Assembly (NCBI GenBank): GCA_002786785.1
Contig: PCUD01000096.1
Coordinates: forward strand, 416-38,902
DNA: 38,487 bases
Direction of reading: 5' to 3'
Origin: Ignavibacteriales bacterium CG18_big_fil_WC_8_21_14_2_50_31_20
GTDB taxonomy: Bacteria; Bacteroidota; Ignavibacteria; Ignavibacteriales; Melioribacteraceae
Shown: piece by piece, positions 184 through 8,158 of the stretch
Layout: each line of letters begins with the position of its first letter
Numbering within the stretch: the stretch's first letter is position 1
Made by a program: the position numbers and the translations under genes
The notes under the pieces: generated by a model
Database searches by the model: none
What the model was told of the DNA's origin: nothing
Seen by the model: only the letters and a program-made list of their open reading frames with translations

Positions 184-615
184 ATGACAGTATTGTTTTC
201 AAAAAAATGTGAAATTGGATTACAGGCAGTTCTGTATTTATCCACTGAAGAAGATGGCGTGCTATTTAATGCTTTGCAAGTTTCCGAAAAGGTAAAACAA
301 CCAAAAGAATTTGTGTCAAAAGTGCTGCAAATACTAACTACTTCAGGAATTATTGGTTCAAAAAAGGGAAAGAATGGAGGCTTTTTTCTTGCAAAATCTG
401 CCACTGAAATTAGGTTAATTGAAATTGTTGAAGCAATTGATGGAATGGAAGTTTTTGAAAAATGTGTACTCGGATTTCCGGAATGTGGCGACACACATCC
501 TTGTCCAGTTCATATGCAGTGGGGCAAACTAAGAGATGATGCGTATAATATGTTAAAGGAAGAAACTTTGCATGATTTTAAAATGAAAACATTCGATAAA
601 CTAGCCACACTTTAA
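184..615 (+). CDS. Rrf2-family transcriptional regulator, probable Fe-S sensor
   Basis: A 143-residue winged-helix regulator of the Rrf2 family (NsrR/IscR/RsrR relatives), which bind DNA as dimers and sense NO, oxidants or Fe-S status through a [2Fe-2S] or [4Fe-4S] cluster. The helix-turn-helix and wing occupy about residues 8-75, including the family-typical GSKKGKNGGFFLAK wing. Three cysteines, C94, C101 and C107, sit in the family's cluster-binding loop with C-X6-C-X5-C spacing; C9 is an extra cysteine. The start is supported by AAAGGA at 172-177, six bases before the ATG. It lies 95 bases upstream of the polyferredoxin/HAO-type genes on the same strand, so control of that operon is a reasonable inference. 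The exact signal (NO or redox) cannot be read from the sequence. Family assignment is firm. Confidence 0.93.
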   Translation: MTVLFSKKCEIGLQAVLYLSTEEDGVLFNALQVSEKVKQPKEFVSKVLQILTTSGIIGSKKGKNGGFFLAKSATEIRLIEIVEAIDGMEVFEKCVLGFPECGDTHPCPVHMQWGKLRDDAYNMLKEETLHDFKMKTFDKLATL

Positions 616-663
616 AAATCATTTAATTATTATAAACTTTTCGCTTGCTAAAAGGTAATAATA

Positions 664-691
664 TTGCCATTTTTATAATCGGAATTATAAT
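664..691 (+). promoter_or_regulatory. possible sigma70-like promoter for the polyferredoxin-HAO operon
   Basis: TTGCCA at 664-669 and TATAAT at 686-691 are separated by 16 bases and lie 20 bases before the polyferredoxin start at 711. The -10 sits inside a perfect palindrome at 682-693. Plausible by motif and position, not proven. Confidence 0.4.
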
Positions 692-693
692 TC
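682..693. promoter_or_regulatory. 12-bp perfect palindrome, candidate Rrf2 operator
   Basis: GAATTATAATTC is its own reverse complement and overlaps the candidate -10 hexamer in the 95-base gap between the Rrf2 gene and the polyferredoxin gene. A dimeric repressor bound here would block the promoter. AT-rich palindromes also arise by chance, so the operator role is an inference. Confidence 0.35.
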
Positions 694-710
694 TTATTAA
701 AGACTGAAGT

Positions 711-1742
711 ATGAAAAAAAATAAATTAAATAGCACACAAAATTCTCGATTCTACATACAAACTTTTTTTACAGCCTTAACAATTTGGATTGGAGTTGAG
801 TTTTACTTTTTCATTGGTTGGCTTGAATCTGCAGGAGTTTCTGAGTTTTCTACCCGCCCACCTGGAGTTGAAGCATTTCTTCCAATTAGTTCGTTAATGA
901 GTCTTTTACTTTTTTTCAAGACTGGCGAAATTCACCCAGTTCATCCTGCCGGTTTATTTATTTTTATAGCAATTATAGCCGTTTCATTTATTTTTGGAAA
1001 ATCATTCTGCAGTTGGATTTGTCCTATTGGTTATATTTCAGAAATGATTGGAGATTTTGGTGAAAAAATTCAAAAAAAAATCTTTGGTAGAAAATTAGTT
1101 TTGCCCAAATATTTGGATTACCCACTTCGCTCGCTTAAATATTTGATTTTGCTGTTTTTTGTCTATGCAATTATGGGTATGACTGCAATTTCTCTTAGCG
1201 GTTTTTTGGATGCTCCATATAACATAATGTCAGATGTAAAAATGTACTATTTCTTTGCCAACATTAGTCAATTTGCCTTAATAGTTGTTGCTTCTCTTTT
1301 TATTTTATCAATTATAATTAGAAATTTTTGGTGCCGATATTTGTGCCCTTATGGTGCATTACTCGGATTGTTTTCACTTATTAGCTTTAATAAAATTAAA
1401 CGAAATAAAGATACTTGTACAGATTGTGGACATTGCTCAGTTGTTTGTCCATCAAATATTAAAGTTCATAAAGTAAAAACAGTAATTTCTGATGAATGTG
1501 TTTCCTGCTTAAAGTGCATCGATTCTTGTCCAATTCCAAATACTCTTGATTTAAGAACAAGTCTTGGAAAAAAGAAATTTGATAAAAAATACGTAGGGGT
1601 TGCAATACTTGTTATTTACTTTACAATTCTTGGAATTGGATTAGTTACTAACAATTGGCATAATAATATATCAAAAGAAAAATATTTGGAATTATATCCT
1701 AATATAAATTCGTTTGATCACTTAAAAGGAAGTGGGTTTTAA
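711..1742 (+). CDS. NapH-like membrane 4Fe-4S polyferredoxin
   Basis: A 343-residue membrane protein of the NapH/NosR/CcoG-like family, in which transmembrane helices carry CX3CP motifs and a cytoplasmic ferredoxin domain carries two [4Fe-4S] clusters. Helices are visible near 15-38, 80-98, 140-165, 185-205 and 295-313. The CX3CP motifs are C100-C104 and C208-C212. The ferredoxin cysteines are C236, C239, C242, C246P and C263, C266, C269, C273P. NapH-type proteins pass electrons from quinol to periplasmic reductases, and accessory forms accompany NapC-type cytochromes. Here it precedes an octaheme HAO-family cytochrome and a NapC-like cytochrome, so a role in the same electron path is likely. 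The C-terminal helix and the roughly 30-residue tail after it go beyond a minimal NapH. Exact partner and direction are unknown. Confidence 0.88.
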   Translation: MKKNKLNSTQNSRFYIQTFFTALTIWIGVEFYFFIGWLESAGVSEFSTRPPGVEAFLPISSLMSLLLFFKTGEIHPVHPAGLFIFIAIIAVSFIFGKSFCSWICPIGYISEMIGDFGEKIQKKIFGRKLVLPKYLDYPLRSLKYLILLFFVYAIMGMTAISLSGFLDAPYNIMSDVKMYYFFANISQFALIVVASLFILSIIIRNFWCRYLCPYGALLGLFSLISFNKIKRNKDTCTDCGHCSVVCPSNIKVHKVKTVISDECVSCLKCIDSCPIPNTLDLRTSLGKKKFDKKYVGVAILVIYFTILGIGLVTNNWHNNISKEKYLELYPNINSFDHLKGSGF

Positions 1743-1753
1743 TTTTTTAAAAT

Positions 1754-1785
1754 AAATATGTTTTTTTTAAGCGAAAAACATATTT
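1754..1785 (+). repeat. AT-rich hairpin after the polyferredoxin gene
   Basis: A 12-bp inverted repeat (1754-1765 with 1774-1785, 8-base loop) lies 12 bases past the polyferredoxin stop. It could be a weak terminator or an mRNA processing or stability element separating the polyferredoxin from the HAO gene. There is no clean T-run after it. Confidence 0.4.
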
Positions 1786-1792
1786 TACTAAT

Positions 1793-1817
1793 TGATAAGA
1801 AATTTTAAAATTTATCA
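1793..1817. repeat. imperfect palindrome upstream of the octaheme cytochrome gene
   Basis: TGATAA followed by AT-rich sequence and ending TTTATCA forms 11-base arms interrupted by a two-base GA insertion. It lies about 90 bases upstream of the HAO-family gene and could be a regulator site; nothing identifies the regulator. Confidence 0.25.
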
Positions 1818-1904
1818 TTAGTTTGTCTCTGATTAGAATTAAACATTTGAATATAAATAAATATTTAATACTGCTTTATTTAATAATAGTTTAGGAGACT
1901 CTAA

Positions 1905-3242
1905 ATGAAAAAAATCAATTTACTTTTGTTCATCTTTATTCTAATTGGAATGTTTGGAACATTCTCTGCAAAAAATTATGATGCTAAAGTCGCCGGCAAA
2001 TGTATGACGTGCCACAAGGAAAAAAGTCCAGGGATTTACAAGCAATGGCAAAAATCGAAGCATGCGGAACATAATGTTACTTGTTTAACTTGCCATGCTG
2101 CGGAAAGTGGTGATAAAGATGCTTTTGAACATGAAGGGGCTTTAATTGCAACATTGGTTACACCAAAAGATTGTGGAGCTTGTCACACTAGAGAAGCCGA
2201 TGAAGTTAACAATTCTTACCATGCAACTGCAGGTCATATACTGCAATCTCAAGATGCATATTTAGCTTACGTTGGCGGAGGTACGCCTGCAGTAGTTGCT
2301 GGCTGTGAAAGTTGTCATGGCGGAGTAATGTTAATTGATGAAAAATCTCCTAATAAACTTTCATCTTTAAGCTGGCCAAATAGTGGCATCGGAAGAATTA
2401 ATCCAGATGGTTCTTTGGGTTCATGTACCGCGTGCCATACACGACATGCATTTTCTAAAGCTCAAGCGAGAAAACCAGAGGCATGTTCAAAATGTCATTT
2501 AGGTCCAGACCATCCACAAAAAGAAATTTATGAAGAAAGCAAACATGGAAACGCATACTATACTCATCTAGATGAAATGAATATTAAATCAGATTCGTGG
2601 GTTGTAGGAGTTGATTATTACGAAGCACCAACATGTGCAACATGTCATATGTCAGCAACTTCAAAACAAAAATTGACTCATGATGTTGGCAATAGAATTT
2701 CATGGACCTTGCGACCACCAGTTTCAAAGTATAAAGATAATCACGAACAAAAACGAAAAAACATGAAAGATGTATGTGCAGCATGCCATACTGAACGGTT
2801 CATGGATGGACACTTTGTGCAATTTGATGCTTTAGTAAATTTATATAATGAGAAATTTGCGAAGCCAGCAACAGCAATTATGAAAATTATTAACGATAAG
2901 AAATTAGTACATAATAAAGCCAATTTTGCAAATGATATCGATTGGATTTACTGGGAGCTTTGGCATCACGAAGGAAGAAGAGCCCGCCATGGTGCAGCAA
3001 TGATGGGCCCAGATTATACATGGTGGCATGGTATTTATGATGTTATTCATAGTTTTTATTTCAAATTTATTCCAGCAGCTAAAGAATTTAACGATAAAGA
3101 TGTTAATACTGCTATTGATAAATTGTTGAAAAATGACCCAATGCATCAATGGTTTTTAACTAAATCAACTGCGGAATTAAAAGAATCAATAAAAAATGGT
3201 GAAATGGCAAAAATATATTCCAAACTATTTGACCAAAAGTAA
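1905..3242 (+). CDS. octaheme cytochrome c, hydroxylamine oxidoreductase (HAO) family
   Basis: A 445-residue exported cytochrome with an N-terminal signal peptide (about 1-22) and exactly eight CXXCH heme sites with first cysteines at 33, 60, 90, 134, 174, 194, 244 and 291. Eight sites followed by a long heme-free helical C-terminal region (about 296-445) is the HAO layout. HAO relatives oxidise hydroxylamine or hydrazine, or in the reverse, Campylobacter-type branch reduce nitrite or hydroxylamine to ammonium. It is shorter than nitrifier HAO (about 570) and lacks a C-terminal membrane anchor. A conserved-looking block GPDYTWWHG (Y371) might hold the cross-linking tyrosine of oxidative HAOs, but alignment is needed. 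The start is supported by AGGAGA at 1893-1898. The next gene, a NapC-like cytochrome, begins 10 bases later, as in haoA-haoC pairs, which favours a reductive role. Family sure, direction unsure. Confidence 0.88.
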   Translation: MKKINLLLFIFILIGMFGTFSAKNYDAKVAGKCMTCHKEKSPGIYKQWQKSKHAEHNVTCLTCHAAESGDKDAFEHEGALIATLVTPKDCGACHTREADEVNNSYHATAGHILQSQDAYLAYVGGGTPAVVAGCESCHGGVMLIDEKSPNKLSSLSWPNSGIGRINPDGSLGSCTACHTRHAFSKAQARKPEACSKCHLGPDHPQKEIYEESKHGNAYYTHLDEMNIKSDSWVVGVDYYEAPTCATCHMSATSKQKLTHDVGNRISWTLRPPVSKYKDNHEQKRKNMKDVCAACHTERFMDGHFVQFDALVNLYNEKFAKPATAIMKIINDKKLVHNKANFANDIDWIYWELWHHEGRRARHGAAMMGPDYTWWHGIYDVIHSFYFKFIPAAKEFNDKDVNTAIDKLLKNDPMHQWFLTKSTAELKESIKNGEMAKIYSKLFDQK

Positions 3243-3252
3243 GGATGAAGCA

Positions 3253-4746
3253 ATGAAGAAGAAATATCTTAATTTCATTCGTGGTGTTTCTATAAATAAA
3301 ATTGGATTTACTGGGGTGGTGCTTACTACATCATCCTTTGTTGCCATGATTTTTCTTGAACTATTGCGCATTGCCGGGGTTTTAACTAATGCTTACATTG
3401 GCTTAATAACTTATCTGTTGCTTCCTACCTTGTTTGTAATTGGACTAGTTTTCATTCCATTTGGATGGTTTAAATATAAAAAGGAAAGTGGCAAAACTGC
3501 AAAAGAATTGCTTGATAGACAGTTTACTGTTGAAGAATTAGAAAAGAATAAACTTGGCTCAACTCTAACCAGAACGGTTTTAATTTTTACATTGGTTAAC
3601 GTTCTATTTCTATCCATTGCAAGTATGCGTATGCTTCAATTCATGGATGAACCAGTTTTCTGTGGAACTGCTTGTCATTCAGTAATGGGCCCAGAATGGG
3701 CAACTTATCAGGTTTCACCACATTCACGAGTTGCGTGTGTAAGTTGTCACGTTGGCGAAGGAGTGGGTGCCTTAATAGATTCAAAACTTAATGGAACTTG
3801 GCAAATGATTTCAGTTACTTTTAATTTGCTCGAAAGACCAATTCCAACGCCAGTTCACCAATTACGACCTTCTCGCGAAACTTGTGAAAAATGTCATTGG
3901 CCTGAAAAATTTTATGGTTCAAAAATTAAATCAATTGTTCATTATAGTACAGATGAAATTTCAAGTCCTAAATATACAACTCTTGTTCTAAAAATTGATT
4001 CAGGAGAAGAGGTTGGAAAATCAGGTATTCATTGGCATATAGGTAAATCAAACCAAATTAGATATGCCTCAATTGAGGATGAACGTGAAGAGATGCTTTG
4101 GGTTGAAGTATTAAAAAATAATGGAACAGTTAAGCGTTTCATCAATAAAAAACATACTGATATTGAATACAATTATAAAGATGTAAGAATAATGGATTGT
4201 GTTGATTGCCATAATCGCGCGACACACATTTATGAAGATCCTATTGACGCTGTTGATAAACGAATTAGAAAAGGTTTAATTGATCACTCACTTCCATTCG
4301 TAAAACGAGAAGCTGTTGGAGCAATAATCAGTAGTTTTACTACTGCCGATTTAGCAAACCAAATAATTCAAAATCATATTCTAAGTTTCTACCGAGAAAA
4401 TTATCCCAATTTACTTGGCACAAAAGGTGAAAGTATTGATAAAGCAATTTCTACTTTACAAAATGTTTACAATACTAATATCCATTATGGAATGAATGTT
4501 GACTGGGGAGTTTATCCAAATTTTCTTGGTCATAAAAATGGAAGTGGTTGTTTCCGTTGTCATAATAAAGATTTGGTTGATGAAATTAGTACACCGATAA
4601 AAAGTGATTGCACCATGTGTCACTCAATACTTGCAAATGATTCGCCACAACCATTTACATATTTAAAAAATGCAACTAATGAAAATCGCGATTCAGCAAT
4701 GCATGTATATCTAAAAAATGAATTTCTTGAATACTCAATTAAATAA
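3253..4746 (+). CDS. membrane NapC/ImcH-like hexaheme cytochrome c
   Basis: A 497-residue inner-membrane cytochrome likely to oxidise menaquinol and feed the preceding HAO-family enzyme. About three hydrophobic segments (17-43, 47-72, 106-126) precede the heme domain. The first heme site is CX3CH (C137-GTA-C141-H142), followed by standard CXXCH at C162, C211, C316, C433 and C453. The CX3CH site followed by SVMGPE resembles ImcH of Geobacter and other long NapC/NirT-type quinol dehydrogenases. Ordinary NapC/NrfH have four hemes and about 200 residues, so this is a long form. I chose ATG 3253 because AAGGA lies at 3241-3245 with seven-base spacing; an upstream in-frame start at 3196 would overlap the HAO gene by 47 bases and add a poor N-terminus. 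Role in quinol oxidation is inferred from family and gene pair. Confidence 0.85.
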   Translation: MKKKYLNFIRGVSINKIGFTGVVLTTSSFVAMIFLELLRIAGVLTNAYIGLITYLLLPTLFVIGLVFIPFGWFKYKKESGKTAKELLDRQFTVEELEKNKLGSTLTRTVLIFTLVNVLFLSIASMRMLQFMDEPVFCGTACHSVMGPEWATYQVSPHSRVACVSCHVGEGVGALIDSKLNGTWQMISVTFNLLERPIPTPVHQLRPSRETCEKCHWPEKFYGSKIKSIVHYSTDEISSPKYTTLVLKIDSGEEVGKSGIHWHIGKSNQIRYASIEDEREEMLWVEVLKNNGTVKRFINKKHTDIEYNYKDVRIMDCVDCHNRATHIYEDPIDAVDKRIRKGLIDHSLPFVKREAVGAIISSFTTADLANQIIQNHILSFYRENYPNLLGTKGESIDKAISTLQNVYNTNIHYGMNVDWGVYPNFLGHKNGSGCFRCHNKDLVDEISTPIKSDCTMCHSILANDSPQPFTYLKNATNENRDSAMHVYLKNEFLEYSIK

Positions 4747-4751
4747 GTTTT

Positions 4752-4788
4752 AGAGGTCACTCAGTCTAAATAAAATAGAGTGACCTCT
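4752..4788. terminator. bidirectional terminator between converging cytochrome operons
   Basis: AGAGGTCACTC at 4752-4762 is perfectly complementary to GAGTGACCTCT at 4778-4788, giving an 11-bp stem with a 15-base loop in the 49-base gap between two converging genes. TTTTAG on the left and CTAAAA on the right extend partial symmetry outward. T-runs are short, but position and stem fit a shared terminator. Confidence 0.7.
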
Positions 4789-4795
4789 TCTAAAA

Positions 4796-5104
4796 TTAAA
4801 TCAAATTTACATACTCAAGAACTGGAACATCAAAACCTTCAAATTCAGGAACAACAACTTGTAAATCTATAAATTTATCAATTTGTTTTTGGTAATAGCC
4901 AGTTCGCTGATTGGCAACTGCTGCTTCCATATTTTCCCAAATTGTTGTTGAAATAAACTTACCAGCATTTTTATTTACAAAAAAGGATGCACCAATAAAT
5001 CCTTTTTGCTGTTTGGCTTCTGGAAGAATGCTGTTCTCATATATATCAATCGCTTCTTTACGTTTATCCAATTTTAGATGAAAGGTTGTAACTCGTGCGT
5101 ACAT
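4796..5104 (-). CDS. ABM-fold (antibiotic biosynthesis monooxygenase-like) small protein
   Basis: A 102-residue protein with the pattern of the dimeric alpha+beta ABM fold: an N-terminal strand (YARVTTFHLK), a helix with KRKEAIDIYENSILPEA, a GFIGASFFVN strand, an ISTTIWEN strand and a helix with GYYQKQIDKF. Members include monooxygenases, heme-degrading IsdG proteins and many proteins of unknown role. The catalytic His of IsdG is not evident here, so heme degradation is not supported. I chose the ATG at 5104 because GGAG lies at 5114-5111 on the minus strand with six-base spacing; an upstream TTG at 5116 would destroy that arrangement. It follows the 16-heme cytochrome gene by 60 bases on the same strand and may be cotranscribed. 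Specific function unknown. Confidence 0.7.
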   Translation of the reverse strand: MYARVTTFHLKLDKRKEAIDIYENSILPEAKQQKGFIGASFFVNKNAGKFISTTIWENMEAAVANQRTGYYQKQIDKFIDLQVVVPEFEGFDVPVLEYVNLI

Positions 5105-5164
5105 ATTTTTCTCCAAGTAAATAATTCAAAAATTTTGCATTAAATTTTAACATAAACCAAAAAG

Positions 5165-7567
5165 TTATTCATTATTTTTGGTTGAAGTCATTGAATCAAA
5201 CCAAACAAAAAGTTCAGGATCATTATTTAGTTCGTTTTGCAACACTTCGTCAGGATCAGAACCATTTTTTTCAACAGTATCTAAGAAAAGTTGCATAAAA
5301 TTACTAAGTTTTCTCCTTTCAATATTGTTAATTTTATAATTGTTCCATTCTAAAAGCAATTTTCTAAAATGATTTTCGTGATGCTCTCTGTAATGACCAA
5401 TTGACATTTTTCCATCAACCCAAGTAAAGCTCATTGGATATTCTTTTGGATGAATAATTACGAAAAACCAGTGCCAAACTAAAATTGCAAGGGTTGCTAA
5501 AATAGCTTCGTAAAAGTGAATAATTTCAGCTACTTTTATTAACCAAATTGGAGTCCAAGTATCAACAATTGTTGGAAACCAAAGAACTAATCCCGTTAAT
5601 CCCATTACAAAAGTACCCCAAATTAATGCCCAATATTCTGCTTTTTCTGCATAATCATATTGGTTAAAATGTGGATGTTTTTTCTTGAAATGTAAATAGT
5701 ATAAAATGTTGTCTATGGCATCACGTAAATCTCTAAAAGTAGGAATCATTTCAAATAATACGTTTCTACCACGCGCAGTAAAAATTAAATAAAACAAATG
5801 ATAAAAACTAAGAACTGTCATTATAACAGCCGCAACTCTATGAGTTATTGAGCGAACAGCTTCTGTCATCCCAAGAGTAAGTAAACCTTCTGACCAAAAA
5901 CTATTTGGATATTTTAAAGCAAATCCAGTAATTGCAAGTATGATAAACGAAGTTAATAAAAGAAAATGTTGAATAACTTCATTTTGAGTGAAACGAGGAA
6001 CTGTAATAACGTTTTTATCTTTCCGTCTTTTTCGTCGTATTTCAAACAAGAAAATTATAAGATTGTGAATAGCCATTCCACCAATCACGGTTATAATTAG
6101 CCAAAAATAAATTTCTTTTACAAGATCTTCAATTTGTTTTGCTTCCGCTGATTCAGTTTCGTGTGAATAGCTAATTGAAAAAACTTCTGTTGCATTTTCA
6201 TGACATTTACGACACGTTTGTGTAACATTTGCTTTATTGATAGTTGCATTTGGGTCGCTACTCTGCAAAATACTGTGAACTCCGTGACAATCAATACACA
6301 ATGCAGCATTACTTCCACCACGATATGCTGCAAGTCCGTGATAGCTATTTAAGTATTGTTCAACTTCTTTGCCTTCAGCACCAAATTTTTGATTCATTCG
6401 TGCATCATTATGACAGCTAATGCAAGTTTTATCTTGCATTTTTAAGCGATAAGCTTTTTTGTCTGAAACAGTAATATCTTCAATATTATGTTCACTATGG
6501 CAATCGTTACAAACTGGAGCATCTTTTATGCCTTTCTTTGCTCTAATCCAATGTATTGAATTTTTGTATTCCTCAACAATTTCACTATGGCATTTCCCAC
6601 ATGTAGTTGGAACGTTAATTGGTGAAATTTGAGAATTTTCTTGAACTCTATCTTTAATTGTATGAAAACCATGACAAGAAGTACAGTTAGCTGCTTCTTT
6701 ATTTCCACTCATAACTAATTTGCCATGTACAGATTGCGAATACATTTTGCCAGGTAATTTTAAACTCATATGAAATTTCTCTTCAAAGGCAGGGTCGTCA
6801 TGGCAAGTTCCGCAAGTGGTTCCAATATTTTTAGTATTAATCATACTCAATGAATCTGAAGAAGGTAAAATTTGATGCGAACCATGACAGTTCCAGCACA
6901 TAGCAGCATCTTCCTCGCCACCAGCTAATGCTAATCCATGAACACTTTCGGCATGCAATTTAGCTACATTATTATGGCAAGAATAACAGTTGGCTTTTTC
7001 TCTTTTATGCAAACCGTCTTGATGTTTTTCAATATTATTAGCAACATATCCGTGACAATCTACACACGCCAATCCATTATGTACAGAAGTACTAAGAATT
7101 GGTTTATAATCATCTATTTCATGGCATTCAGCACAAGTTGTTTCACCACTAGAATTTGAATGATAACTAGATGTTAAAACAACTCTTCCATTTGTGTGGC
7201 ATTTACCACAATATTCTTTTGTGGGGTTTTTGAATTTTGATGGAGCAATAATTGTATGATTTCCATGACAAGAAACGCAATTTGGATTTCCTTTTTTAAT
7301 TCCAATTTTACTATGAATATCATTTTTAACAGATGATTCATAATCTTCATGGCAATCCAGACAATTTACTTTTTTTACTCCTGTGTCGGCATGATTTTCA
7401 TCCTCAACATCCGAATGGCAGTCAGCACAACCGATTGCATCTAAATGAACGCCAACAATCTTGGTTTCGTGGCAATCAGAACAGTCAAAATCTTGAGCTT
7501 GGGTAAAATTAAAGGTTAATAAAAGAAAAAAAACAAATATTTTAGGACTGGTTAATATTTTTTGCAT
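5165..7567 (-). CDS. 16-heme cytochrome c fused to a diheme-type cytochrome b domain (CbcL-like)
   Basis: An 800-residue protein with a signal peptide (about 1-24, cleavage near AQ-D) and a periplasmic region containing sixteen CXXCH sites, first cysteines at 29, 47, 69, 97, 120, 145, 168, 194, 224, 252, 295, 323, 353, 382, 424 and 452. It continues into a membrane domain (about 487-710) with five probable helices near 487-509, 533-551, 573-597, 645-664 and 682-705. Candidate b-heme histidines include H534, H576, H590, H684 and H699. This is the FdnI/HydC-type cytochrome b fold, which takes electrons from menaquinol. The same c-then-b fusion is known in Geobacter CbcL, which has about nine c hemes and serves extracellular metal respiration; this one is much larger. 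A charged tail (711-800) is probably cytoplasmic. GAGG precedes the start. Domain content is sure; substrate unknown. Confidence 0.88.
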   Translation of the reverse strand: MQKILTSPKIFVFFLLLTFNFTQAQDFDCSDCHETKIVGVHLDAIGCADCHSDVEDENHADTGVKKVNCLDCHEDYESSVKNDIHSKIGIKKGNPNCVSCHGNHTIIAPSKFKNPTKEYCGKCHTNGRVVLTSSYHSNSSGETTCAECHEIDDYKPILSTSVHNGLACVDCHGYVANNIEKHQDGLHKREKANCYSCHNNVAKLHAESVHGLALAGGEEDAAMCWNCHGSHQILPSSDSLSMINTKNIGTTCGTCHDDPAFEEKFHMSLKLPGKMYSQSVHGKLVMSGNKEAANCTSCHGFHTIKDRVQENSQISPINVPTTCGKCHSEIVEEYKNSIHWIRAKKGIKDAPVCNDCHSEHNIEDITVSDKKAYRLKMQDKTCISCHNDARMNQKFGAEGKEVEQYLNSYHGLAAYRGGSNAALCIDCHGVHSILQSSDPNATINKANVTQTCRKCHENATEVFSISYSHETESAEAKQIEDLVKEIYFWLIITVIGGMAIHNLIIFLFEIRRKRRKDKNVITVPRFTQNEVIQHFLLLTSFIILAITGFALKYPNSFWSEGLLTLGMTEAVRSITHRVAAVIMTVLSFYHLFYLIFTARGRNVLFEMIPTFRDLRDAIDNILYYLHFKKKHPHFNQYDYAEKAEYWALIWGTFVMGLTGLVLWFPTIVDTWTPIWLIKVAEIIHFYEAILATLAILVWHWFFVIIHPKEYPMSFTWVDGKMSIGHYREHHENHFRKLLLEWNNYKINNIERRKLSNFMQLFLDTVEKNGSDPDEVLQNELNNDPELFVWFDSMTSTKNNE

Positions 7568-7684
7568 ATTTTTGAATTCCTCAGAACTATCAGTTAAATA
7601 AGTGAAAACTTTATGTTTTAGTAAAAAATACTTTTAGTTTATTAGATGAAAAAAAACAATAAATGGATTATAAAAACAATTACA

Positions 7685-8158
7685 TTAATTCCGTTTAGAA
7701 TTATCTGTCCAAGTTTTAAGTGCTTTAATGAGCTCTTCCATTGATTCTATAATAAACTCGCGTTTATCTTCAGGTAAATTATTTAAAATGTTTTCGTGAA
7801 GTTTTATATGGTTCTCGTTTACTTGTTTAAGAAAAGGAATACTACTATTAGTTAAATGAACAATAATATTTCTTTTGTCTTTTTGGTCAATTTTTCTTTC
7901 AATATATTTTTTGGCTTCAAGTGAAGTTAAAATATGTGTGATTCTACCAGGTGTTAAATTCATTTGAACAGCAATTCTTTTAATAGACATGCTTGATTTA
8001 TTCTTAAAAAGTCTTAAACATCTAAATTCTGCAGGCGTCAAATTATATTTTGCTGCAAAAAAATGCTCTTTATTTAAGCACGTTTTTCCAAGGTCACATG
8101 TCAGTCTTGACATTAATTCGGCTGATGAATCAATATCATCTTTTACACTATAGTTCAT
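7685..8158 (-). CDS. MarR-family transcriptional regulator
   Basis: A 157-residue winged-helix regulator. The helix-turn-helix and wing span about residues 38-105: SSMSIKRIAVQMNLTPGRIT is the recognition region, and ERKIDQKDKRNIIVHLT is the wing with the family's typical D-x-R-D/N-x-R-type basic tip. Flanking helices (8-35, 110-150) would form the dimer interface. MarR proteins usually repress neighbouring genes and respond to small phenolic or redox ligands; the cysteines C21, C27 and C47 could allow redox sensing, but that is a guess. It lies 117 bases upstream of the 16-heme cytochrome gene on the same strand, so it may head that operon, and 212 bases from the divergent rfbC. The ATG start has only a weak GAGAA upstream. 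Confidence 0.88.
   Translation of the reverse strand: MNYSVKDDIDSSAELMSRLTCDLGKTCLNKEHFFAAKYNLTPAEFRCLRLFKNKSSMSIKRIAVQMNLTPGRITHILTSLEAKKYIERKIDQKDKRNIIVHLTNSSIPFLKQVNENHIKLHENILNNLPEDKREFIIESMEELIKALKTWTDNSKRN

Follow-up and report, generated by a model that had tools for sequence, protein, structure and literature searches.

Among the described systems, those closest to the locus analysed here are the reverse-HURM of Nautilia profundicola, composed of HaoA and NapC/CycB, and the epsilon-Hao of Caldithrix abyssi. For both, a protein of the hydroxylamine oxidoreductase (HAO) type has been proposed in place of NrfA (passages of PMC3701875 and PMC5317091), and the same role was proposed in Deferribacter (passage of PMC6896113). 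This means that the general idea of HAO standing in for NrfA is not new. In addition, reductive HAO proteins lacking the tyrosine are described in passages of PMC8940962 and PMC12758564, and HAO-family proteins were counted in 65 phyla (passage of PMC9213671). The locus under study belongs to Ignavibacteriales bacterium CG18_big_fil_WC_8_21_14_2_50_31_20 (Melioribacteraceae) and lies in a stretch of 38,487 nucleotides (contig PCUD01000096.1, positions 416 to 38,902), in the following called the window. Two gene groups converge there. With a probability of roughly 0.6, the left one, the left arm, would be an Rrf2-controlled operon for a periplasmic menaquinol:nitrite (N-oxide) reductase that stands in for NrfHA. 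It comprises the following features:

108-127, strandless: candidate Rrf2 operator 1, ATCAGATTAAAACTTCTGAT, 12/12 arm positions, 56 bases 5' of the rrf2 start codon
184-615, + strand: Rrf2-family regulator (PF02082, 95.1 bits, cut-off 30)
678-697, strandless: candidate Rrf2 operator 2, ATCGGAATTATAATTCTTAT, 10/12 arm positions, 13 bases 5' of the napH start codon
711-1742, + strand: NapH-like membrane [4Fe-4S] protein (Fer4_5, 76.6 bits, cut-off 22)
1905-3242, + strand: octaheme HAO-family protein, 445 aa, 8 CXXCH (PF13447, 92.7 bits, cut-off 21.9)
3196-4746, + strand: open reading frame (ORF) of a hexaheme membrane cytochrome of the NapC/NrfH superfamily, ATG at 3253 the likeliest start (TIGR03153, 48.1 bits, below the cut-off of 134.2)

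Like the reverse-HURM and epsilon-Hao proteins, the octaheme protein of the window belongs to the HAO family and comes from a genome without an NrfA match. The Nautilia donor is, according to the passages cited above, a cytochrome of the NapC/NrfH superfamily, and such a cytochrome is encoded by the gene adjacent to the octaheme gene in the window. The known systems have a tetraheme partner, in contrast to the hexaheme protein with a CX3CH first motif found here, and in the same passages C. abyssi is said to be devoid of NapC. Furthermore, the window differs from the reverse-HURM by an adjacent NapH-like gene without Nap, by an Rrf2 palindrome and by the presence of NrfHA in the same slot within the genus; the Nap and Hcp of the reverse-HURM have no match in the genome from which the window comes. 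With NrfHA operons the left arm shares the genomic slot, the NapH neighbour, the candidate operator and the combination of a membrane cytochrome with a periplasmic multiheme enzyme. It is distinguished from them by an enzyme of the HAO instead of the NrfA family, by the lack of a CXXCK heme and by a membrane partner that is larger and scores below the NrfH cut-off. As far as the literature searches show, what is new is the partner with six hemes, the finding of NrfHA in this slot and a palindrome common to both kinds of operon. In the titles, abstract beginnings and passages covered by the search on this gene set, no description of an exchange between the octaheme pair and NrfHA was found.

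The locus was compared in five genomes of the same genus, the window's own (G000) and four relatives (G001 to G004); L-numbers designate individual loci. In G000 and G003, the gene order is Rrf2-NapH-octaheme-hexaheme. The order in G002 is the same, with an additional gene for an Alginate_exp-type barrel 5' of the octaheme gene. In G001, it reads Rrf2-NapH-barrel-NrfH-NrfA, and in G004 Rrf2-NapH is followed by no reductase pair. The small ABM-fold gene that ends the right arm faces the left arm in 5/5 genomes, shortened in G002. The regulator and NapH are conserved throughout: G001 is 83% (Rrf2) and 77% (NapH) identical to the window, G004 97% and 95%. The barrel gene of G001 matches Alginate_exp, and the G002 barrel is 70% identical to it. 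G001 NrfH passes TIGR03153 (162.4 bits, cut-off 134.2). G001 NrfA scores 620.1 bits with NF008339, above the cut-off of 595, and contains four CXXCH motifs and one CXXCK. It shares only 38-43% identity with 19 others, which are 59-86% identical among themselves, and therefore looks foreign. Two loci were omitted from this comparison, L169 because its gene is fragmented among the called ORFs and L175 because the contig ends within the gene. In G004, rated 100% complete, neither an octaheme orthologue nor a full-length NrfA match was found. The locus would work as a fixed chassis (Rrf2, NapH, sometimes an outer-membrane barrel) with an exchangeable pair, which is octaheme/hexaheme, NrfA/NrfH or missing.

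An identity profile revealed that positions 1-1745 and 4790-5116 of the window are far closer to G004 (L142) than are the neighbouring right-arm genes for the fusion and MarR. Synonymous divergence (dS) between G000 and G004 amounts to 0.12 for rrf2, 0.22 for napH and 0.30 for abm, in contrast to 1.19 for the fusion gene and 1.05 for marR. The left segment has therefore probably been exchanged by recent recombination. A conserved protein of 336-337 residues is encoded just beyond rrf2 in opposite orientation in G004 (L142 11833-12843), G003 (L144 5648-6000, cut by the end of the stretch) and G002 (L151 9595-10608). Its L142 copy has no Pfam or NCBIfam match.

The second line of evidence is a palindrome that had been absent from the initial annotation of the window. 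The regions upstream of rrf2 in the five same-genus genomes share ATCAGA-N8-TCTGAT. Scored as matches over the 12 arm positions (arms ATCAGA and TCTGAT, 8-base spacer), this site reaches 12/12 with identical arms in 5/5 genomes. A second palindrome precedes napH, again in 5/5, with 10-11 of 12 matches; the napH ORF of G004 was called longer than that of the window, and the second site lies 5' of the start equivalent to the window's. Taken alone, the window site at 678-697 is weak: 16/500 shuffles, which preserved base composition only, equal its score. In the whole own genome, the pattern ATCRGAN7TTCTKAT has three copies, two of them at this locus, and the reversed control pattern has one. The third operator-like site (C3) was set aside, as it lies inside an ORF of its locus.

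The same palindrome accompanies NrfHA in other genera. A NapH homologue is located near NrfHA in 17/20 loci of relatives (adjacent in 15, within two genes in 2). A palindrome of at least 11/12 was found within 250 bases 5' of 17/24 napH/rrf2 genes at 20 NrfHA loci of other genera and of 2/140 control genes. The Fisher value of 1e-15 overstates independence, because the genes are related; counted by locus, 14/20 reach 11/12. As controls served ORFs from L161-L180 that have 120 residues or more and for which 250 upstream bases were available; genes for NrfH, NrfA, the barrel, ferredoxin, Crp/Fnr and octaheme proteins were excluded. Of the excluded genes, several score 11-12, mostly via an upstream region common with napH. 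Similarly, the two control genes at 11 lie in napH-linked regions, one divergent from napH in L169 and one between a ferredoxin-like gene and napH in L162. At two NrfHA loci, the palindrome also lies in the 250 bases 5' of the gene for a second octaheme HAO-like protein, 407-413 residues in length (L173 9463-10686, L177 8718-9959). In L173, this region is shared with a divergent napH, and the regulon may include another HAO-type protein.

The window Rrf2 contains three cysteines, C94-x6-C101-x5-C107, two of which are invariant in 13 aligned Rrf2 proteins. This pattern is that of Fe-S type Rrf2 proteins. NsrR likewise belongs to the Rrf2 family, has three cysteines and is linked to nitrite-reduction genes. 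With 39.8 bits, the window protein remains far below the cut-off of 182 of the NsrR model NF008240, and the NsrR consensus published in the passage of PMC1274295, gATGyAT-N5-ATrCATc, differs from the palindrome found here. A literature search on Rrf2/NsrR regulons and nrfA in Bacteroidetes, covering passages of one paper, did not turn up ATCAGA-N8-TCTGAT, which is no proof of its being unpublished.

The octaheme protein is a member of the HAO family by both sequence and fold. It has eight CXXCH motifs and a Multi-haem_cyto domain (PF13447). Its best solved relative is 4qo5 (IhOCC, E = 1.2e-46), the archaeal octaheme cytochrome of Ignicoccus hospitalis, followed by HAO enzymes at about 1e-21. 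In the profile search, IhOCC scored 212.8 bits and the entries of oxidative HAO and hydrazine dehydrogenase at most 99.5. An AlphaFold2 model (predicted local distance difference test, pLDDT, 82) retrieved eight Foldseek matches at E <= 0.001, all of them HAO-family chains, with low query TM-scores of 0.34-0.37. VIA-align 2 yielded nine HAO-family entries with Z 8.1-12.0, the next row being at 5.4. IhOCC came first (Z 12.0, 195 residues, root-mean-square deviation 3.1), tied with N. europaea HAO, since rows within 1 count as equal. The HAO-fold matches span residues 200-402 of the model only. IhOCC, the nearest solved structure by sequence, is 27% identical to the window protein over the aligned part and of archaeal source. 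As to the tyrosine cross-link site at heme 4, three profile and sequence searches left the C-terminal part unaligned to oxidative HAO entries. With a ratio of non-synonymous to synonymous substitutions (dN/dS) of 0.03-0.05, the gene is under strong purifying selection. An alignment of the octaheme protein comprised the window and 59 of the 80 octaheme loci.

The hexaheme protein is the candidate for the donation of electrons to the octaheme protein. Its gene adjoins the octaheme gene in 61/71 loci with room to show it and has a dN/dS of 0.08-0.11, again indicative of strong purifying selection. The first heme motif is CX3CH at residue 156 of the long ORF. Both cysteines and the histidine are invariant across 43 aligned rows (42 loci and the window; L049 with a stop in the gene, L082, L102 and L108 were omitted). 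The protein resembles NrfH around hemes 1-2. It has six instead of four hemes and falls short of the NrfH and NapC models (TIGR03153, 48.1 of 134.2 bits; PF03264, 21.7 of 24.1 bits). The structural model is poor (pLDDT 65, predicted TM-score 0.42), and only its three long N-terminal helices (16-40, 47-79 and 104-131) were used; Foldseek found no match at E <= 0.001. The NapH-like protein, with 92.9 bits below the cut-off of 213 of TIGR02163, is NapH-like only and a candidate quinol-oxidising or electron-transfer subunit.

From these data, the following scheme can be proposed. Electrons would pass from menaquinol via the membrane-bound, NapC-like hexaheme protein to the octaheme protein, perhaps assisted by the NapH-like Fe-S protein. 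The octaheme protein would reduce nitrite, most likely to ammonium. Rrf2 is probably a repressor of the Fe-S type with nitric oxide or nitrite as its signal; it would bind ATCAGA-N8-TCTGAT and repress its own gene as well as the operon. The substrate and product of the enzyme, the path of the electrons, the binding and the signal of the regulator and the direction of the pair exchange are predictions. A nitrogen-oxide reductase module had already been suggested for the left arm. This assignment gained support from the replacement by NrfHA in G001, the palindrome common with NrfHA operons and the Hcp, Crp/Fnr and cupin neighbours at some loci elsewhere.

The distribution of NrfA provides a further, less firm argument. 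Octaheme holders were defined by an orthologue at E <= 1e-100 and NrfA matches by E <= 1e-50. Among the 34 genomes sampled from the family, NrfA was found in 0/8 holders vs 18/26 non-holders, two partial matches (G015, G033) included (Fisher p = 7e-4). The exclusion of NrfA by the octaheme protein is a tendency within the family with one exception, G192. The scarcity of NrfA in the genomes of the 80 octaheme loci (2/80) was rejected as evidence for replacement, as the phylum of one such genome, G063, has NrfA in just 6/132. The weight of the argument lies on the palindrome common to both kinds of operon and on the occurrence of different pairs at a single locus. The 80 loci apparently include G003 (L031), G002 (L032), G029 (L033), G017 (L045) and G032 (L054), and L065 apparently belongs to G192, so that counts are not independent. 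Among their neighbours above 70 bits are Crp/Fnr (10), an accompanying ferredoxin (10), NapH (13), Rrf2 (6), a barrel (13) and cupin (6). Hcp lies beside 4/80 (L036, L038, L106 and an Hcp-like ORF in L093). NrfHA occurs at 1/80, L065, in one run NapH-NrfH-NrfA-octaheme-hexaheme. L065 (13425-16578) and L176 (10314-13468) also encode a 538-residue octaheme HAO-like protein behind two genes that look Rieske- and cytochrome b-like by eye, which would be a different possible electron supply. Relatives of the octaheme protein occur in genomes titled with more than 10 phylum-level groups. The octaheme protein of L034, labelled Calditrichaceae, is 82% identical to that of the window vs 70% for L045 and 67% for L065 from Melioribacteraceae; either mis-binning or a recent transfer could account for this.

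A number of observations weigh against the operon being a stand-in for NrfHA. Addition of the class sample to that of the family brings in G192, which has both modules, and reduces the contrast to 1/9 vs 27/43 (p = 0.008; table counted by hand). The class sample of 294 genomes itself gives 2/10 vs 126/284 (p = 0.19, not significant), and related genomes are non-independent in all these tests. The hexaheme partner is missing in 10/71 octaheme loci. No site of at least 11 was found at 6/20 NrfHA loci (L161, L168 and L171 have 10; L164, L167 and L180 at most 9). At the operon starts tested, the HAO loci L036, L038, L047, L048 and L068 yielded no palindrome, and there is no clear one in G017, G024 and G032. 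With TIGR03152, a further NrfA model, G001 NrfA does not reach the cut-off (471 of 692.5 bits). Between this gene and ABM, two small genes are located (L141 9656-10407) that are toxin-antitoxin-like by eye; they could be a trace of the NrfHA segment having entered here. The pair swap by itself cannot separate nitrite from nitric oxide, hydroxylamine or sulfite. Finally, the own genome (182 contigs, 99.4% complete) contains no match to NapA (E <= 1e-100), NarG (E <= 1e-60) or Hcp (E <= 1e-3); without NapA and NarG, nitrite would need an outside source.

The missing nitrate reductase can also be read in favour of a module for the same nitrogen oxides that mainly serves detoxification, or a partial reduction to nitric oxide or hydroxylamine, instead of respiratory nitrite ammonification. 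Hcp and cupin neighbours at some loci of other phyla point in the same direction, as do hemerythrin- and ScdA/RIC-type genes identified by eye near Rrf2/NapH in relatives. In addition, an HAO-like enzyme of anammox bacteria that has no tyrosine cross-link turns nitrite into nitric oxide (passage of PMC12758564). We consider this alternative unlikely, albeit the most serious one: the same slot is held in G001 by NrfHA, a six-electron reductase, and the octaheme gene is adjoined in most loci by the gene of a dedicated quinol-dehydrogenase-like partner.

Reduction of sulfur compounds appears improbable. It was proposed for a protein of the HAO family from a Desulfobacterota clade that branches deeply. 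According to the passage of PMC9213671, which makes this proposal for one clade, the HAO clades I/II outside Campylobacterota have no known function. Record titles show Desulfobacterota among the octaheme relatives. This is opposed by NrfHA in the same slot with a candidate operator in common and by the Hcp and Crp/Fnr context elsewhere. An oxidative hydroxylamine oxidoreductase feeding the quinone pool, compatible with membership in the HAO family and with IhOCC and HAO as nearest structures, is very improbable in view of the profile score, which favours IhOCC over the oxidative HAO and hydrazine dehydrogenase entries, and of the reductase in the same slot of G001.

The left arm, for which we prefer nitrite reduction in place of NrfHA, is faced by the following features:

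4752-4788, strandless: terminator-like hairpin between the convergent operons (exact inverted repeat and RNA folding)
4796-5116, - strand: ABM-fold small protein, last gene of the right arm (PF03992, 32.2 bits, cut-off 23.1)
5165-7567, - strand: 16-heme c/cytochrome b561-type fusion (16 CXXCH; PF01292, 60.9 bits, cut-off 30.1)
7685-8158, - strand: MarR-family regulator of the right arm (PF01047, 45.7 bits, cut-off 24.6)

The seven genes of both arms are located where the initial annotation had put them. Its count of 30 c-type heme sites was correct: 8 CXXCH in the octaheme protein, 5 CXXCH and 1 CX3CH in the hexaheme protein and 16 CXXCH in the fusion. It had also reported a perfect inverted repeat at which the arms meet, and this repeat has indeed exact 11-base arms with a 15-base loop, a combination given by 0/100 shuffles. 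RNA folding of 4743-4800 yields z = -5.9 on the plus and z = -5.2 on the minus strand. The convergence points of G003 (one strand folded) and G004 (both) carry strong hairpins unlike that of the window. As the hairpins differ at the same convergence point, the repeat is an ordinary terminator-like element and no shared control site; a control point common to both arms was rejected. The symmetry of the arms comes down to convergent genes with a terminator-like hairpin between them. Another exact inverted repeat, with 12-base arms and an 8-base loop, lies at 1754-1785 between napH and the octaheme gene and is possibly a processing or attenuation hairpin. An Rfam scan of the window found no RNA family at its gathering score.

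The fusion protein combines an N-terminal multiheme c part with a cytochrome b (16 CXXCH and PF01292) and is, by this layout, of the CbcL type. Geobacter ImcH and CbcL are menaquinol oxidases of the NapC superfamily and of the multiheme c/cytochrome b kind, types to which the hexaheme and the 16-heme protein of the window also belong, respectively. The hexaheme gene differs by its tie to that of an octaheme reductase, and the 16 c-hemes of the fusion are more than CbcL is known to carry. In G020, G010, G005, G025 and G026, the fusion gene is accompanied by genes for a tetraheme, a barrel-like 420-425-residue, a 14-heme and a further multiheme protein, an arrangement expected of a porin-cytochrome conduit. 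The barrel is a putative one; a family scan of a single example, that of G020, gave no match. These neighbours support the suggestion that the right arm is a membrane cytochrome-b multiheme electron-export module, with the fusion as candidate menaquinol-linked electron-export protein. Separate switching of the arms, also suggested, is consistent with palindrome sites of at least 10/12 at 108, 678, 1814 and 13647 in the window and none in the right arm.

That the two arms make up a single, co-evolved respiratory system of two parts was not supported, and we regard it as highly improbable. In a census of 58 genomes including the own, fusion homologues (E <= 1e-30) are present in 46 and octaheme orthologues (E <= 1e-100) in 8 (G000, G002, G003, G017, G024, G029, G030 and G032). 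The adjacency of the arms, which would favour one system, was seen only in G000 and G003; short contigs restrict the view for G024, G029 and G030. At the same locus, the right arm is kept opposite NrfHA in G001 and opposite no reductase in G004, in both cases without the octaheme pair, and many relatives likewise have it without this pair. Conversely, G002 and G032 have the octaheme gene but no fusion match, G002 with the shortened ABM gene still present. Among the 80 octaheme loci, a fusion above 100 bits was found only in L031, apparently the G003 contig, and weakly in L079. Both the distribution over the 58 genomes and the same-locus comparison led us to reject co-evolution. Independent occurrence of the arms in relatives with no co-expression had been named in advance as speaking against one system; the first part of this, independent occurrence, was found in the comparison of genomes. 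The right arm would be a unit of its own for menaquinol-linked electron export, headed by MarR and no more than a neighbour of the left arm.

Different pairs, NrfHA included, at one locus under one candidate operator provide genetic evidence for nitrogen oxides as substrates of the left arm. The presence of NrfHA in the same slot as the octaheme enzyme suggests a role for a widespread enzyme family. It is an evenly balanced proposition that a large branch of the HAO family constitutes a second system of respiratory nitrite ammonification, exchanged as a ready-made pair with NrfHA in one Rrf2-controlled chassis with its own operator. Surveys of ammonification that consider nrfA only would overlook such organisms. 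The same-genus set, with the octaheme pair, NrfHA or neither, offers a natural comparison for testing this idea.

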